Positions 11,980 to 28,298 of a stretch of 64,000 nucleotides of DNA are shown piece by piece (the first letter of the stretch is position 1; each line of letters begins with the position of its first letter). Both the position numbers and the translations under genes were made by a program. The DNA comes from Glandiceps talaboti (lineage: Eukaryota > Hemichordata > Enteropneusta > Spengelidae). Below the pieces are notes generated by a model that was given only the letters and a program-made list of their open reading frames with translations, made no database searches and was not told the origin of the DNA. The stretch spans positions 24,050,449 through 24,114,448 of the forward strand of contig NC_135553.1 of assembly GCF_964340395.1 (NCBI RefSeq). Direction: 5' to 3'.

Positions 11980-12498
11980 ACTAGGCTCACTAATGGTCTA
12001 GCATTCTTGCAAATCAGAGTTGTGCTGTTACTTCTTCCGCGACACTGCGAAGCATCTTGGACGGTGCCGTAAAAGAGGATGTGGTTTACGACGATGTTGG
12101 TCTAGAAGAGAAGTTTGATCTTACGTAAACGCTAAAATTAATACGAAAGAATCTTGGACTGAAATCCTGGTTTCTACAACAAAGTTTAGTATTCTCCGTT
12201 TTTAGAGCGAGTGAAAAAATAGACTAAAAATACATCGTTGAGGGCATCGTTATCATCCGTGGAACTGGATAAGTAGAATGCACCCAACGACCGATCTTGC
12301 CAGTTTTACTTCAAAAGTGATAAGTTAAAATTAATACGAAATATATATTAATATTAATATGGATGTATTCTCTCTAACACCCACGACTTTAATAATAGTT
12401 AACAAAACAGTTCATTTCTACAACATACTTCCGTGATATAATCGAGCACCTGAATGTGTTTCGTTTATCGTTACTGAACTCATAAACATCCATATTGA
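11980..12498. mobile_element. unclassified insertion, unit 2 copy
   Basis: Present at this position and at 25272-25817, absent from the first unit, which reads straight through GTGGATGTCGAGACATGG near 2331. The insert includes the motif CTTCCGCGACACTGCGAAGC and no reading frame I recognise. In this copy the right junction has also lost about 24 bp between two GTATGT motifs. Confidence 0.55.
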
Positions 12499-19320: not shown

Positions 19321-19332
19321 AAAAGGCATTTC
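19321..19332. repeat. target-site duplication, left copy
   Basis: AAAAGGCATTTC directly before the LINE. The same 12 bp recurs at 24375-24386 after the poly(A) tail. The unoccupied site is seen once at 10680-10695 upstream of H4-3. Confidence 0.88.
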
Positions 19333-19832
19333 GGTCACGTGATGTACAGCAAACTGTTCGCTTGCATGTTCAGATCGCTCTACAACTATTTCTGTGTATT
19401 TCATTGAAATCAGCAAGCTAGTCTTTCTCAGCACATCCGTTGTGTTAGAAAACCATGGGAGTCTCCGTTGAAGTCTGGAGAGCCAAGATTGGGACTTTCA
19501 CTCATCCTAAAAACTGGAGAGATATTCAACTGCACTTGTACAGTCCTTTTTCAAAATGGTCATATGCAAATCAGCTTGCCTACAGAACGATCGCCTGTGT
19601 CGTCGTGGTATGGTATGTGGTTGCTTGCACGGACATACTACTAAACTGCGTAAACATGTCGTCATTATGGCTCCAAGAAAATGGTATGTTGCTACTAGAT
19701 GAAAATTATGATTCTTGTACTGAACGTGAAATTGGTCATTCTGCGAACTTTTCGTTTCAAGAAACCAACAGTGGCACTGACTTTGGAATGTACTCACAGG
19801 TGCCATGTTTGGCATCTGTCATCAGTAAGCCA

Positions 19833-19886
19833 TTAGTCAAAAAACTTTTGCAGTTAGCCGGTGACATAGAACTAAACCCCGGTCCC
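19833..19886 (+). other. 2A-like ribosome-skipping motif in ORF1
   Basis: Codons 127-144 read LVKKLLQLAGDIELNPGP. This satisfies the D(V/I)ExNPGP consensus with a preceding helix-forming leucine-rich stretch. 2A-like peptides cause the ribosome to skip the final Gly-Pro bond, releasing the upstream peptide and continuing from Pro. Such motifs are known in ORF1 or N-terminal positions of some non-LTR elements (trypanosome L1Tc/Ingi, sea urchin, amphioxus, molluscs). Activity of this one is inferred. Confidence 0.85.
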
Positions 19887-20290
19887 CAGTCTGATGTTAT
19901 CGATGCAATGGAGTCTATTAAAGGGGAATTATTAGCGCAAATAAACAAGGTCGGTGAGCAACTTAGTCGTGAGATGTCTGTTTTGAATGACAAGCAAACT
20001 GTTGTTCAAAGAACTTGTGACGGTCTTAGCCATAAGCTGTCAGAACTTCAACAAGTGACACAAAAAATGAGTTCTGAAATAAATGACCTTAAAGAAGAGA
20101 ATAATGTCACCAGACTTGACATTGATGCTATCGACCAGAAGGTAGAAAGTATGATGGAACAACTGAATGACATTGAGAGGGATACAGACAGTCTTGAATC
20201 GTTTTCGAGAAGAGACAATGTCCGACTGTATGGGATAACAGAAGAACCAGGAGAGACTTTTGATAGTATAAAAGAAAAGGTTGTGTCAAT

Positions 20291-20344
20291 CTTGAATGAA
20301 ACAGTTAGAGGTAAAACCTCTTGAATGAAACAGTTAGAGGTAAA
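20291..20344 (+). repeat. 29-bp-period direct duplication inside ORF1
   Basis: The 25-nt segment beginning CTTGAATGAAACAGTTAGAG occurs at 20291 and again at 20320, separated by ACCT. It introduces the TGA that interrupts ORF1. Confidence 0.85.
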
Positions 20345-20783
20345 TCGGGACATCGTCCGAGCCCATCGCACCGGCATCCGACGTGGCCCGCAACCAAGAC
20401 CAACATTAGTCAAGTTCCATCATGGTGCAGACAAAGTGACTGCTCTCGCTGCAAGGGATGATCTAAAGAAAATAAATGTCGGAATTGGAAATGACTTAAC
20501 GAAACGACAACAAAAAACACTTTCCAACTTGAGAAGCCAGGGCAAAAAAGCATACTTTAAAAAGGGCAAATTGATTATCGAAAACAATGATGAACATATT
20601 GCGCAACAGAATGCACAAGAAGTTGCTGTTTCAAGTATTGTCGGGAGTACCGAAAGTCAGAACCCTCGGAAAACATACAGGCGAGGTACAGTCTCCATTG
20701 CACCACAGCGTCCGTTTACAAGATCCCGTACTAGAGAACCAGAGATGTGCACATCCGAATAGGGAATCGGCCACGGCTCAAAA

Positions 20784-23700
20784 ATGTTGAAAATCATGTT
20801 TTGGAATGTGAGAGGACTCAAGAACAAGATTAAAGATTTTGACTTTGCGAACTATTTGTTACTCAATGATGTAATTATTCTAGTGGAAACCTGGGCGGAA
20901 AGTGATATGGAATTTGACGATATATTTCCGGGTTTTAAAGTTTTCAGTAAATATCGTCCAAGAAAAGCAGCTTCTGGTAGATATTCCGGTGGTATCATTA
21001 TTATTGTAAAAGAAAATATTTTGCCTTATATTACACCAGTCAGATGTGATATGAAAGATTGTCTATTCCTTCTCATAAATGGAGATTTAATTAGCAATAT
21101 CAAAGACATTTTAATTTGTGGGGTATATATACCCCCAGAAAAGTCAACATATTATCACAATTTGCAGTCGGAAAATGGTGTTGACTTATTTGAAACCCAA
21201 TTGTTAGAAGTTATTTCTAAACTGCCAGATGTAGACATCATTGTGGCAGGGGATTTCAATGCACGTACTGGCACTGAAGCTGACTACATTGTTGATGATG
21301 ACCCCAAGTATGTAGTCAATGATATGCCTAATTATAATACAGATTGTTTCAATATGCCCCGCACTTCAAAAGATAACACAGTAAACATTTTTGGTCGCAC
21401 CTTACTCACTGCTTGTTCTACGTATAGTTTGCATATTTTAAATGGTAGATCGGGGTCAGATGCTAATAAAGGTGATTTCACTTGCATTTCACACAATGGG
21501 GCTAGTGTCGTTGACTACATCTTGGTTTCCACTCAAATGTTTAATGAGATTCATGATTTCTCTATTGGTTTACGTACTGAATCTGATCATTTTCCACTTC
21601 ACTTTAAGTTATCTTCAGTTTTATGCCGTCAGTTAGAACCCAGGATCCTGCATAGGCCTATTGCAGAAAAATACATTTGGAACGAGGCTCAGAGAAATTC
21701 TTTCATTAATCATTGTCAGTCAGATTCCGCTACTGCTCTTTTAAACAATTGTAGTGAGAATGTCAATATTGAGGTAGACGATTTTGTGTCAGCCATTCAA
21801 CATATTTTTGATGACGCAGCATCTAAGTGTAATATGGTCAAGAAAGTGTACAGCTTGGGTAAAGAACGCCAGCGAAAACAACCCGATTGGTTTGACTCAG
21901 AGTGCAAAAAATTAAAATTGGAGAAGTTTAGGTGCTTGAGGAAATTTCGCTCTGAGGGTAACGTTTGTTTTCTCAATAGTTTTAAAAGACTGAGATCAGA
22001 GTTTAAAAATATGTGTAATGTAAAAAGACTAAAATTTCTTGATACTCGTAGAAAGCAGTTGGCTACTTCTATCAACGACCCAACCCGTTTCTGGCATACT
22101 CTCCATAAAATTACTACTTTTAGAACACGCACCCCTTCTCTTCTGCCAGATGTTTGGTTCAATTATTTTAGTAAGCTGTTCCAAAATGATTCTGAACCCC
22201 CACCTTTTCATTTATCGGATGATTTTACCCATTTGTTAGAATCTACAGTTGATGACGTTTTCCCTATTGAAGGAGATTTGACCTATGATATTCTGAATGG
22301 TCCTATTACAAACGAGGAAATTTTATGTAGTATTGCAAACCTGAAAAATGGTAAATCACCAGGACCTGATAAAGTTTTGGGCGAATTTATGAAGACCTGT
22401 TCACATTTTCTTGTACCATATTTAAATGTTTTGTTCAATAGAATTTTAGACACTGGGTTATTTCCAACAGAATGGTCAAAAGCTATAATTGTACCTATTC
22501 ACAAGAAAGGACCTATTAATGTACCAGATAACTATAGAGGTATTTCTCTTTTAAGTATCTTTAGTAAAATATTTACCTGGATTTTAAACAGGCGTCTTAC
22601 ATTTTGGGCAGAGGCTTTCGATAAAATTGACGAAGCGCAAGCTGGCTTTAGACGAGGTTATTCTACTGTCGATAATGTATTCATCCTTCAGTCAATTATC
22701 CAGAAGTATCTGACAATGAATAAGGGGAAATTCTATTGCGTATTCGTCGATTTTTCTAAAGCGTTTGACACGGTTGAACGTCAGAGGTTATGGTATCTCC
22801 TTGAAAGGTGGTGTGAAGGGAAAGATGTTCAGAATGCTTAACAGTATCTATAACAGTGTCAAGTCTTGTGTGAGAACAGGTGATGGTAATACTGAATATT
22901 TTAACTGTCACAGTGGCGTACGCCAAGGGTGTATGCTTAGCCCCTTCTTATTTTCATTTTTTATCAATGAATTAGCAAGGGAAATCCATGTTACTGGCCA
23001 GCGTGGAGTGCAGCTGTCCCCAGACTTAGTTGAAATCATGTGTTTACTATTTGCAGACGATGTTGTAATGTTTTCTGACACAATTATAGGACTTCAAAAA
23101 TTATTAACCACTCTAAGTGAATACTGTAGTAAATGGCAGATGACTGTCAATTTATCTAAGACAAAAATAGTAGTTTTCAAAAATGGGGGATTTGTGTCAA
23201 AGAGAGAAAAATGGGTTTTTAACGGGAAGGCACTTGAAGTTGTTTCATACTACAAATACCTAGGATTATTGTTATCATGTCGTTTAAAGTGGTTTCAAGC
23301 CACCAAATTGCTATCACAACAGGGCAGAAAAGCTTTTATAAACGCCTGGAGCAAGTGTAATAGAGTTGGTACCTTGTCATATGATACTTTCTTTAAGTTG
23401 TTTGATTCAATGATTTCACCAATTTTGACGTATGGATCTGAACTATGGGGTTTTCAAAGTTACTTGTCACTAGAAAGGGTACAGCTTTTAGCATGCAGAA
23501 TATTTTTAGGGCTTCCACATTGCGCTCCAAATTGTGCTGTTCTTGGTGAATGTGGGAGATACCCAATATATCTAATAACAGCAAAAAAATGTATTAAATA
23601 TTGGGCCAAACTTGTAAATATGCCAAATTATAGATATCCAAAAAAAATGCTATAATATGCTTTACCAAATTGAAAACTCTGGTTTAAGATCTAAGGGTAC

Positions 23701-24259
23701 ATGGGTCAGAGAAGTACGAACCTTACTCTCTATTTCTGGTCAACAAGATGTATGGGACGCACAGGAAGTTGACAATATAGACCTTTTTATAGGCACATTC
23801 ACCACTAGATTTAAACAGTTTTTATTTTTAAATTGGCACAGTGAAATATCAACCTTAGATAAACTAGAAAATTACAGAAATTTCAAATCCCTGCTGCAAC
23901 CTGAAAAGTATTTGTTCTCTGTTACCATTGACAAACATCGGAAGATGTTAGCACGTTTCAGGTGTTCTGCACATTGCTTAAAAATCGAAAGTGAGAGAAA
24001 ATATGGCATAGAGAGACAGGATCGTATTTGTAAACTTTGTGATTTTAGAGAAGTTGAGGATGAATTCCACTTTCTTCTGAAATGTACCTTTTTCAACCAA
24101 TATCGCAACAAATATATTCCTGCCTATTATTATTCACCACCATCCTACGAAAAGTTTATTGAAATAATGCATAGTGAGAACGGAGATATATTGCAAAAGT
24201 TGGCTGTATTTCTTTTTCATGCTCTTTCTCTGAGGAAAGAAGCAGATTCTTTGTTGTGA
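20784..24259 (+). pseudogene. LINE ORF2: endonuclease-reverse transcriptase, two frameshifts
   Basis: Enzyme for target-primed reverse transcription. The APE-type endonuclease comes first: MFWNVRGLKNK, LVETWAE (metal-binding Glu), VAGDFNART, VVDYILVS, ESDHFPL (catalytic SDH). The reverse transcriptase follows: LKNGKSPGPDKV, IVPIHKKGP, NYRGISLLSIFSKI, DEAQAGFRRGYSTVDN, VFVDFSKAFDTVERQR (motif A Asp), GVRQGCMLSPFLFSFFINE, LLFADDVVMFSD (catalytic FADD), LSKTKIVVF, YKYLGLLLS. The C-terminal domain has CX2CX9HX4C (CKLCDFREVEDEFHFLLKC). Frame breaks occur near 22803-22815, between LWYLLE and GGVKGKM, and at an 8-A run at 23640-23647 where 7 would keep the frame (then TGCTATAAT). ORF2 follows ORF1 by 21 bp. 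Confidence 0.9.
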
Positions 24260-24374
24260 GCGACATTTTGTTTTCCTTTTTTCTGCTTTTAACAAGTGAA
24301 TGTAATTATGTAAATGTATTGCATTTTGGGCCAATGGCCATGGACTGCAATAAACGACCTATATAATAAAAAAA

Positions 24375-24386
24375 AAAAGGCATTTC
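24375..24386. repeat. target-site duplication, right copy
   Basis: AAAAGGCATTTC directly after the LINE A tail. The first four A's merge with the tail, so GGCATTTC is the unambiguous part. Confidence 0.85.
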
Positions 24387-24710: not shown

Positions 24711-25043
<333 letters not shown>

Positions 25044-25271: not shown

Positions 25272-25817
25272 ACTAGGCTCACTAATGGTCTAGCATTCTT
25301 GCAAATCAGAGTTGTGCTGTTACTTCTTCCGCGACACTGCGAAGCACCTTGGACGGTGCCGTAAAAGAGGCTGTGGTTTACGACGATGTTGGTCTAGAAG
25401 AGAAGATTGATCTTACATAAACGCTAAAATTAATATGAAAGAATCTTGGACTGAAATCCTGGTTTCAAAAACAAAGTGTAGTATTCTCCGTTTTTAGAGC
25501 GCACACAGTCAAGTGAAGAAATAAACTAAAAATACATCGTTGAGGGCATCGTTATCATCCGTGGAACTGGATAAGTAGAATGCACCAAACGACTGATCTT
25601 GCCAGTTTAACTTTAAAAGTGATCAGTAGATTATAGCGAACAGGTTTACTTGGCATAAATATGGATGTATTCTCTTTAACACTCACGATTTTAATAACAG
25701 TTAACAAAACAGTTCATTTCTACAACATACTTCCATGATATAATCGATCACCTGAATGTGTTATTTCTCTTCAGTATCGATTACCGTTACTGTACTCATA
25801 AAAATCCGTATTGAAGT
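25272..25817. mobile_element. unclassified ~546-bp insertion, unit 3 copy
   Basis: Flanked by ATGT on both sides (25268-25271 and 25818-25821). The first unit reads GGATGTCGAGACATGG with no insert. Same element as 11980-12498. No coding region or terminal inverted repeat recognised. Confidence 0.55.
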
Positions 25818-26830
25818 ATGTCGAGACATGGTTATTTCAGTATGTGTTCCATGTATTGATGCATAACTGAGATACAAGCACACAGCTGACAATGAGGTCA
25901 AAGGAATACAATGAAAAGAAACATTAGTACATATATGCATAGTTAAACAATGCGAATTCTACATTATCGCATGTAAAGCTATTTCTCAACCGTAAAATAC
26001 TAGTAAAGGATGATGCATAAATTAGATATCTGGTGACTAACAGTATGAATAAATGCTGACATTTGGTGCCCTCCTTGCTTTTTATTGTTCCGCTACATAT
26101 TATGCCTAGACGTTTGTATCGATCGCCCTCAGTCTCCGTCTCGTTGAAAATTTCAGGTCACAAAGTTCAAGTTTGTATTTGGAAGAAAGTTTCATTCAGC
26201 TTGTGCATGTTTCTGAATACATACATATAGTATTTTGTCATATATAGGAGATACCGATATATATGGACAATTACACAGTATGTGGGTATACGTATATACT
26301 AGTCGGTACATGAACACATACATACGGAATACAGATAAGTTATTCAATGTGGATACGTATATACACAGCCATGGTATGTATGGCGCCCCCAATTTACTTT
26401 AATTACTTTATACTCCTGATTTTATTCAGCGGGTTATACATTCTTTTGACTCTCGTCTGCCACCTGTTGATACTTTATAGTCCAGGTCGTTTGTCCTTGT
26501 GAGTTGGATGTACGGAGCCGTGCAAGCTATCCATGTACCAGTTTTATCTGTTAATTTACCGAGCCCAGGTCCGAGGTTTTGTTACAAAACCATTATGTCA
26601 TTTACTGTGAAATTTGTCCTTGGTCATTCTTATCAGTAAAATTAACAGTGTATCAATACAACCATTTCTTTGTAAGACTTTTATTAATTTGTTGTCAAGA
26701 ATTAAATGATAAGCTTTGGTGTCATTTCTTTTGACCGTGTATTGTGTCCAAGAGATGTAATTCGGAATTGTTCAAATTTGTATCAGAAAATGAAATATAT
26801 GATCAGAGCATTTAAATTGTATATGTATTA

Positions 26831-28298
26831 TTTTCTGATCATTACCTGCATGATCAATCGCTCCCTTCAAAATGGTACATTTCCAGATGTCTGGAAGGAG
26901 GCAACCGTCGTACCATTGGTCAAAAAAGCAGCTGGCGGTATAGAGTTGTCTAATTATCGACCTGTTAGTAACCTGTCATTCATTTCCAAGCTAGTAGAAC
27001 GGGTTGTTGTCGATCAACTCACCACTCACATGCAGATCAATGCCTTGCTACCAGTTCATCAATCAGCGTACAGACAATATCACAGTACAGAGACTGTCCT
27101 CAGTAAAGTTATGTCAGACATACTTGAGTGTATGGGTCAAAAACAAGTTGCACTTTTGGTTCTACTTGATCTAAGCTCAGCCTTTGATACCGTTGACCAT
27201 GCAATTCTATTGGAGACAATAGAACGCGAATTTGGAGAACAGAATGTCGCACTCACTTGGTTAGCCTCTTACCTCACCAACAGATCACAGAAAGCCATAG
27301 TATCTGGCTGTTTATCTGAAAGTGTTCAACTGAAGTTTGGCGTCCCACAAGGATCATGCCTTGGCCCAGTCCTTTTCACGGCATATTCGAGTACACTGTT
27401 TCGCGTCATAAACAACCATATGATTAATTCATACGGCTATGCTGATGATACACAACTTTTGAAAGCGTTTAAACCTCGATTAGATGATGAAACTGATGCT
27501 ATAAAGTGTATATAGAGGTGTGTCGGTGACATACAAGCCTGGATGTTAACACATAGACTGAAGTTGAATGAGAACAAAACTGAAGTTATGCTACTAGGGA
27601 CAAAACAACAATTAGCTAAAGTAACAAGTAACCATATTACTGTCGGAGATAATCAGATCAAAATAGTTGACCATTTCCGCTATCTGGGAGGCTGATTGGA
27701 TTCAAATCTATCGATGGTTCGTCATGTTAACCAAATCTGTAGGAAAGTCAATCATAACTTATACAATCTCCGTCGTATCCGTAAATATCCATTCTTTAGT
27801 CAGTTCTCATCTTGATTATGCAAACTCCATATTGTATGAAATGCCAAAGTATTTGTTTGAAAGATTGCAGCGAGTACAAAATAATGCCGTACGAGTTGTA
27901 AAAGGTTTGAGGGAATAACTCAATCTCTTATTCAGCTCCACTAGCTGCCTGTCAAGGCACGAGTTGATTTTAAAGTAATTTTACTAGTTTTTAAGGCTTT
28001 GAATGGTAAAGCACCTTTGTATATCCAGGATTCGTTCACACGTACCGTGACGTACCAACAATTCTCGTTACAATTTACGTAACGATTAAACAATATTATA
28101 AACTGTATTGATGTATTACCACGTGTCTTTTACTAAGTAGTCATTTTAGCCTTTTTGTAAATATTGTAACCAATTTGTTGTTTTTAGCTTTATTATATTG
28201 TTTTACCATGCTTTTAAATCTATTTTATGTACAGCGCTTTTGAATATTAATAAATAGAAAAGGCGCTTTAGAAAATAAATAAACGTTAAACTTTATTA
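26831..28298 (+). pseudogene. 5'-truncated CR1/L2-like LINE, unit 3 copy
   Basis: Same insertion as 13480-14978, copied with the unit. The reverse transcriptase is open from MINRSLQNG (about 26850) through NYRPVSNLSFISKL, LLVLLDLSSAFDTVDH, FGVPQGSCLGPVLF and YGYADDTQLL to the TAG at 27513. This copy lacks the TAG and frameshift near 13695-13755 in the unit 2 copy, so those arose after duplication. The TAG after DAIKCI, the TGA after RYLGG and the TAG before LPVKARV are shared and older. A deletion of about 36 bp near 27790 is private. The same L2/CR1-type 3' end is present. Confidence 0.85.

Follow-up and report, generated by a model that had tools for sequence, protein, structure and literature searches.

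The LINE copy and its genomic surroundings

The window examined in this work is the whole 64,000-nucleotide stretch of Glandiceps talaboti contig NC_135553.1. Within it lies a 5.04-kb APE-type LINE on the + strand (19333-24374), flanked by a 12-bp target-site duplication in which AAAAGGCATTTC (19321-19332, +) is repeated exactly at 24375-24386 (+). The open portion of its ORF1 frame (19455-20324, +) encodes 289 residues and begins with the N-terminal motif MGVSVEVWRAKIGTF (19455-19499, +), for which the consensus is MG[VI]x4[WY]RxxIGxF, followed by a transmembrane-like segment at residues 45-63 (19587-19643, +) and by the 2A-like peptide LVKKLLQLAGDIELNPGP (19833-19886, +), with a predicted break between G143 and P144. 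The product that would start at Pro144 (19884-20321, +) comprises a coiled coil and a stretch that we take to be RRM-like. For this product, which the initial annotation had described as a coiled-coil and RNA-binding protein, the coiled coil finds some backing in Pfam matches to coiled-coil-type families, all below the cut-off, and the RNA-binding part is putative; these were the only families among ORF1 Pfam matches up to E 0.05, PF02994 (transposase 22) being absent. The ORF1 frame stops in a period-29 tandem repeat (20290-20344, +; extent judged by eye), and the remainder of ORF1 (20325-20762, +), which has no Pfam match and is presumably CTD-like, lies in a different frame.

ORF2 is represented by an APE endonuclease with the first part of a reverse transcriptase (20784-22841, +; PF03372 and PF00078), the rest of the reverse transcriptase (22825-23655, +; PF00078), and a C-terminal region (23657-24259, +) with a weak zf-RVT match below the cut-off. 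The matches to PF03372 and PF00078 are above cut-off and identify the element as an APE-type non-LTR retrotransposon; the best PDB match of ORF2 is a reverse transcriptase (E 1.2e-37), with L1 ORF2p and then R2 entries next, and a comparison of the first and last 400 bases recovered no long terminal repeats, the longest common exact string being 10 bases. Because ORF1 stays open only to residue 289, in the period-29 repeat, and the ORF2 frame is split in three, the window copy is dead. Two further insertions, on C20 (L009) and C2 (L010), are 99.2% identical to it over about 5 kb, contain one copy of the period-29 repeat where the window LINE has two, and retain open frames for both ORF1 (431 aa) and ORF2 (1165 aa). 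They are flanked by repeats of their own (ATAGATAATCC and ATTATTTTTAAGTA, respectively), and from these near-identical open-frame insertions we infer recent movement of the family.

Judged from five + strand copies of the histone H4 core in the window (at 1437, 6484, 11086, 24780 and 31419), the LINE is inside a histone gene cluster, and an intact H4 frame (24732-25043) is found about 350 bases downstream of it. Peptide contexts at 12163 and 14701 reappear about 13.3 kb further on (at 25455 and 28021), which suggests a duplication within the window. A second reverse transcriptase fragment is present at 26706-27515 (PF00078, E 1.7e-24). Elsewhere in the assembly, contig C40 contains cox1 three times at a spacing of exactly 15,435 bases, which probably reflects concatenation of mitochondrial sequence during assembly. 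The mitochondrial contig reads TGA as Trp, and its gene order, Met-nad2-Asn-Trp-Ala-Cys-Tyr-cox1-Ser-Asp, is chordate-like and would suit cephalochordates or other deuterostomes.

The 2A-like motif and its conservation among genomic copies

The 18 codons at 19833-19886 share the frame of the ATG at 19455, and their translation bore out the reading of GDIELNPGP as a 2A consensus match, as well as the position of the predicted split. DIELNPGP (19863-19886) fits the core (D/G/C/N)(V/I)ExNPGP, and the hexapeptide LLQLAG, which precedes p12 = D and accounts for the leucine-rich stretch noted ahead of the motif, fits by eye the Leu-rich upstream classes ending in (A/S/C)G that are given in the available part of PMC12846837. 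NPGP occurs once in the six frames of the window, and an order-1 Markov simulation (150 runs) yielded 0.23 NPGP and 0 DxExNPGP per window. Genome-wide (590 Mb), the D[VI]ExNPGP codon pattern gave 105 matches, 100 of which have listed places, compared with 0 for the reversed pattern. On these simulated and reversed counts a chance match was rejected, its likelihood being negligible.

The motif is also retained by copies that were selected in other ways. Among 83 genome matches to the window ORF1, 20 high-ranking ones were taken by similarity of ORF1 around the 2A rather than by the motif itself, and 19 of these have D[VI]ExNPGP, the exception being L016 with NLGP. A leader-only query (residues 1-126, 2A excluded) identified 42 genomic places. 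The canonical core is kept in 18 of the 19 leader-bearing copies with a stop-free frame of at least 240 aa (a cut picked after viewing the list, the 19, all of them read, including several near-identical copies of one family), L016 again being the exception; the initial annotation's expectation that intact copies should conserve NPGP is thus largely upheld. Across 12 diverged long leaders, with pairwise identities of 24-93% (median 33%) and a linker just before the 2A that varies in length and sequence, NPGP is found in 11. Four of these 12 (L057, L073, L074, L078) were first fetched via the motif, all four also being found by the leader-only search, and the fairer figure is 7 of the 8 long leaders picked by ORF1 homology.

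The other 23 leader-only rows lack a 240-aa frame, and some of them were read, the descriptions of decay referring to those. The motif is kept in L011, L024, L049 and L057, and decayed or cut copies have NRGP (L082), NSGP (L085) or NP followed by a stop (L083). In L091 and L092 similarity stops before the 2A, and in L089 decayed 2A-like segments, repeated in tandem, come after a leader copy. Similarity is lost inside the 2A in L084 and L087, after GDIE and GDVELN, and in L027 the 2A and body lie behind an unrelated sequence that is endonuclease-like by eye; these breaks may reflect recombination at the 2A or coincidence.

The NLGP of L016, an open-frame copy, is what might be expected if the motif were not StopGo here and ORF1p were a single membrane-anchored fusion. 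The canonical core and known upstream class argue against that reading, as does conservation at the amino-acid level that is focused on the residues needed for skipping, and we consider it very unlikely.

The leader as a conserved protein domain

An alignment of 11 long leaders, from which L018 (C at 21) was excluded as a near copy of L012, contains 13 invariant positions in 84 columns: M1, W8, R9, I12, G13, F15, P18, W21, W35, R44, C48, W72 and L73. From about residue 85 to the 2A, the leaders are highly variable in both sequence and length. Among 18 representative leaders, third positions vary in the codons of the N, P, G core and of conserved start-motif residues. We estimated dN/dS for 12 leader pairs; five between-family pairs gave 0.31, 0.31, 0.35, 0.17 and 0.23 (the last a short-leader pair) at dS of 0.9-2.2, which is near saturation in the informative pairs. 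One closer pair gave 0.48, two were saturated, and four were very close with too few changes, two of them having dN/dS above 1 on few changes and two no synonymous change. Given the low between-family ratios and the third-position variation at conserved residues, the leader very probably constitutes a protein domain maintained by purifying selection. Since third codon positions vary, DNA-level constraint (a promoter or start context) was set aside as the source of the start motif. N-myristoylation of the MG start, which is subject to a rule on position 6, was likewise set aside by eye, this position being mostly Glu or Gln.

The leader could alternatively be functionless, with the 2A just stripping a vestigial N-terminus, in keeping with the high variability between about residue 85 and the 2A. 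This is difficult to reconcile with the invariant residues of the 11 aligned sequences, with the between-family dN/dS of 0.17-0.35 and with a start motif that is common to short leaders, and we regard it as unlikely. Searches with a profile of residues 1-84 retrieved no PDB match up to E 1 and no Pfam family above the cut-off (two families were each matched by one of the 11 members, best E 0.082); against IMG/VR, 17 pattern stretches were obtained and none was confirmed.

The strongly hydrophobic stretch reported for the N-terminal peptide corresponds to residues 45-63, with a mean Kyte-Doolittle hydropathy of 2.28 that was reached by 9 of 1000 shuffles (run on the identical L009 leader). All 12 long leaders have a hydrophobic 19-mer beginning at residue 45-48, with mean hydropathies of 1.5-2.5 that between 0 and 172 of 1000 shuffles reach. 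In complete leaders the charge flanking the segment is 0 to +2 before it and -1 to -3 after it. Sequons are found in 8 of the 12 long leaders, lying ahead of the segment in two (one in L016 and the only one in L074); those of the leader with the break at Pro144 are at 67 and 98. Because these flanking charges are small and sequons precede the segment in two leaders, a putative N-in/C-out topology is weakly supported. Single-sequence AlphaFold2 modelling of the window's 289-aa ORF1 gave a low-confidence helix at 37-76 and a mean pLDDT of 46.4, and therefore no fold search was made. The initial annotation had left open what the N-terminal peptide does and whether its hydrophobic part targets membranes; its role can now be narrowed to that of a conserved domain, very probably under selection, with one transmembrane-like segment.

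Long and short forms of the leader

With small deviations, the consensus MG[VI]x4[WY]RxxIGxF also opens leaders of 58-72 aa, whose hydrophobic stretch continues into the 2A. Among 56 distinct leader rows, 27 have the start motif, of which 16 are long and 11 short, and three further short leaders have it as well (L088, L094 and L095). Many of the 29 rows without it are cut or frameshifted upstream, and in some (e.g. L037, L059, L061 and L064) the leader is longer and the motif is absent. The hydropathy of the short-leader stretch, which overlaps the 2A's own Leu-rich helix, is reached by more than 100 of 1000 shuffles in 8 of 11 cases (overall range 4-382).

Where downstream sequence suffices, short-leader loci are LINEs. 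Endonuclease-like stretches (24-33% identity, E 3e-5 to 3e-35) occur about 800-1040 bases past the 2A in L031, L033, L034, L035, L047, L048 and L058; the L033-L035 copies are without the start motif, which L088 of the same family has, and L056, though sharing its leader with L058, has no endonuclease match. Overall, 28 of 69 loci have such a match, and of the 41 that do not, 20 have only about 0.5 kb of downstream sequence. Downstream bodies of at least 95 aa fall mostly into one similarity cluster (36 of 40, near-duplicates included), among them those of the short-leader loci L031, L047, L048, L056 and L069. In a tree of 19 ORF1 bodies, in which several branches are long, the leader must switch at least twice between its long and short forms, so that it has changed form or been swapped within this LINE group.

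These leaders are N-terminal and hydrophobic and end in a 2A, as do dual-targeting 2A signals. The leader may thus be mainly a signal, partial skipping giving cytosolic as well as membrane or secreted ORF1p, as in sea urchin NLR leaders. According to the available text of PMC4981915, the 26-aa sea urchin NLR 2A signal works in this way, with skipping of about 80% (a qualitative estimate), and the short leaders have the same layout, their hydrophobic stretch running into the 2A. In the long leader, however, the transmembrane-like segment lies about 80 residues upstream and the leader has its own conserved domain, which is more than a signal needs; we consider a mainly signal-like role possible but rather doubtful.

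In two loci, L061 and L067, a leader that is signal-like by eye and a 2A are directly followed by endonuclease-like sequence (for L061, PF03372 at E 0.0015, below the cut-off). At these loci it is apparently ORF2, and not ORF1, that the 2A precedes.

A proposed mechanism for ORF1 expression

The sequence, its conservation, protein-level selection and the co-occurrence of leader and 2A are established; skipping, insertion into the membrane, the topology and any part that the leader plays in bringing LINE RNPs to membranes are inferred. We think it probable that ORF1 encodes two products that are split by StopGo (2A), with the leader targeted to the ER and the RNA-binding protein freed. The first product would be the leader of about 143 aa, made up of the conserved start motif, a single transmembrane-like segment and 60-90 variable residues, and the second a coiled-coil RNA-binding protein beginning at Pro144. 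Between the end of the segment (63) and the break (143) there are about 80 residues and, given the length of the ribosome tunnel, the segment would be out of the ribosome and SRP-bound before the 2A acts. The ER would then be the site of translation and the leader would be inserted N-in/C-out, with the 2A cutting the leader away so that the RNA-binding protein is not pulled to the membrane, and with incomplete skipping leaving a membrane-anchored fraction of ORF1p. In this manner the leader could tie LINEs to membranes without permanent tethering of ORF1p. The ER step has less support, because the flanking charges are small and because, in the portion of PMC5478143 available, human L1 retrotransposition is described as not dramatically affected by glycosylation and Golgi inhibitors.

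More tentatively, a whole animal LINE group may carry a dedicated and conserved membrane module composed of the MG..WR..IG.F start, the transmembrane segment and StopGo, with a long and a short version found on diverged ORF1s, that would bring mRNA to the ER, release ORF1p and allow RNPs to be assembled on membranes; we place this proposal a little short of an even chance. If true, the use of membranes by LINE RNPs would become directly testable, in that a Pro-to-Ala change should keep ORF1p tethered and removal of the transmembrane segment should free it. Furthermore, about a hundred natural 2A sites with varied leaders are available in one animal genome.

Relation to known 2A and LINE systems

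Non-LTR retrotransposons of the APE type that bear a 2A reportedly include L1Tc of Trypanosoma cruzi, described by Heras in 2006, and elements of animals, described by Odon in 2013. In agreement with the initial annotation, the available text of PMC4981915 states that 2A-like sequences were known earlier in LINEs, and the elements it cites resemble the present one in having an in-frame 2A-like sequence in an APE-type LINE. They differ, in a comparison made by description only, in that the 2A of the present LINE closes a conserved leader, about 143 aa long, with a transmembrane-like segment and a start motif common to short leaders. A search by titles and abstract starts found no conserved membrane leader before a 2A in LINE ORF1. 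The terms '2a peptide' and 'transmembrane' were not found in the part of PMC4120745 that was available. The presence of 2A in LINEs is thus known, and the leader looks like a new variant.

The sea urchin SpNLR2A (Roulston 2016, PMC4981915) likewise has an N-terminal hydrophobic leader ending in a 2A, and in the sections available skipping is described as deciding the targeting of the downstream protein, the signal acting when skipping fails. That leader has 26 aa and belongs to host immune genes, whereas those described here have 58-157 aa, belong mostly to LINE ORF1 and begin with MG..WR..IG.F, the long form having a separate transmembrane-like segment in addition. Viral StopGo motifs 2 and 6, as far as PMC12846837 was accessible, share the D(V/I)ExNPGP core, p12 = D and an L-rich hexapeptide ending in (A/S/C)G, and a motif-6 example is reported there as active in reticulocyte lysate. 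Those motifs are of RNA viruses, with p15 = S linked to them, whereas the present one is in a retrotransposon and the window copy has Leu at p15. The esterase-type ORF1s of CR1 LINEs and ZfL2-1 (PMC5478143, in part) resemble the present ORF1 as devices possibly linking LINE RNPs to membranes, with the difference that they use a lipid-binding enzyme domain in place of a separable transmembrane-like peptide. From ESCRT and esterase-type ORF1s, the same source argues in its available part that membranes are part of LINE replication, without pinpointing which membranes, if any.

A separate 2A-bearing repeat

A different repeat accounts for a large share of the genomic pattern matches, 31 of the 100 listed places having one common 23-base core that derives from it. 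Eleven were read (L029, L030, L040, L041, L043, L044, L045, L046, L050, L052 and L054). The L045 frame has no Pfam match. In comparison with L029, the matching length is about 3.0 kb in six copies (96-98%), 2.1 kb in one and 0.8 kb in three (94%). The repeat encodes a hydrophobic stretch and then a 2A, after which just 34-60 residues remain (...GKFAI[IV]GSIHQG...), and where the leader is complete it has a related start, MGMCVQQYRQSVGSF.
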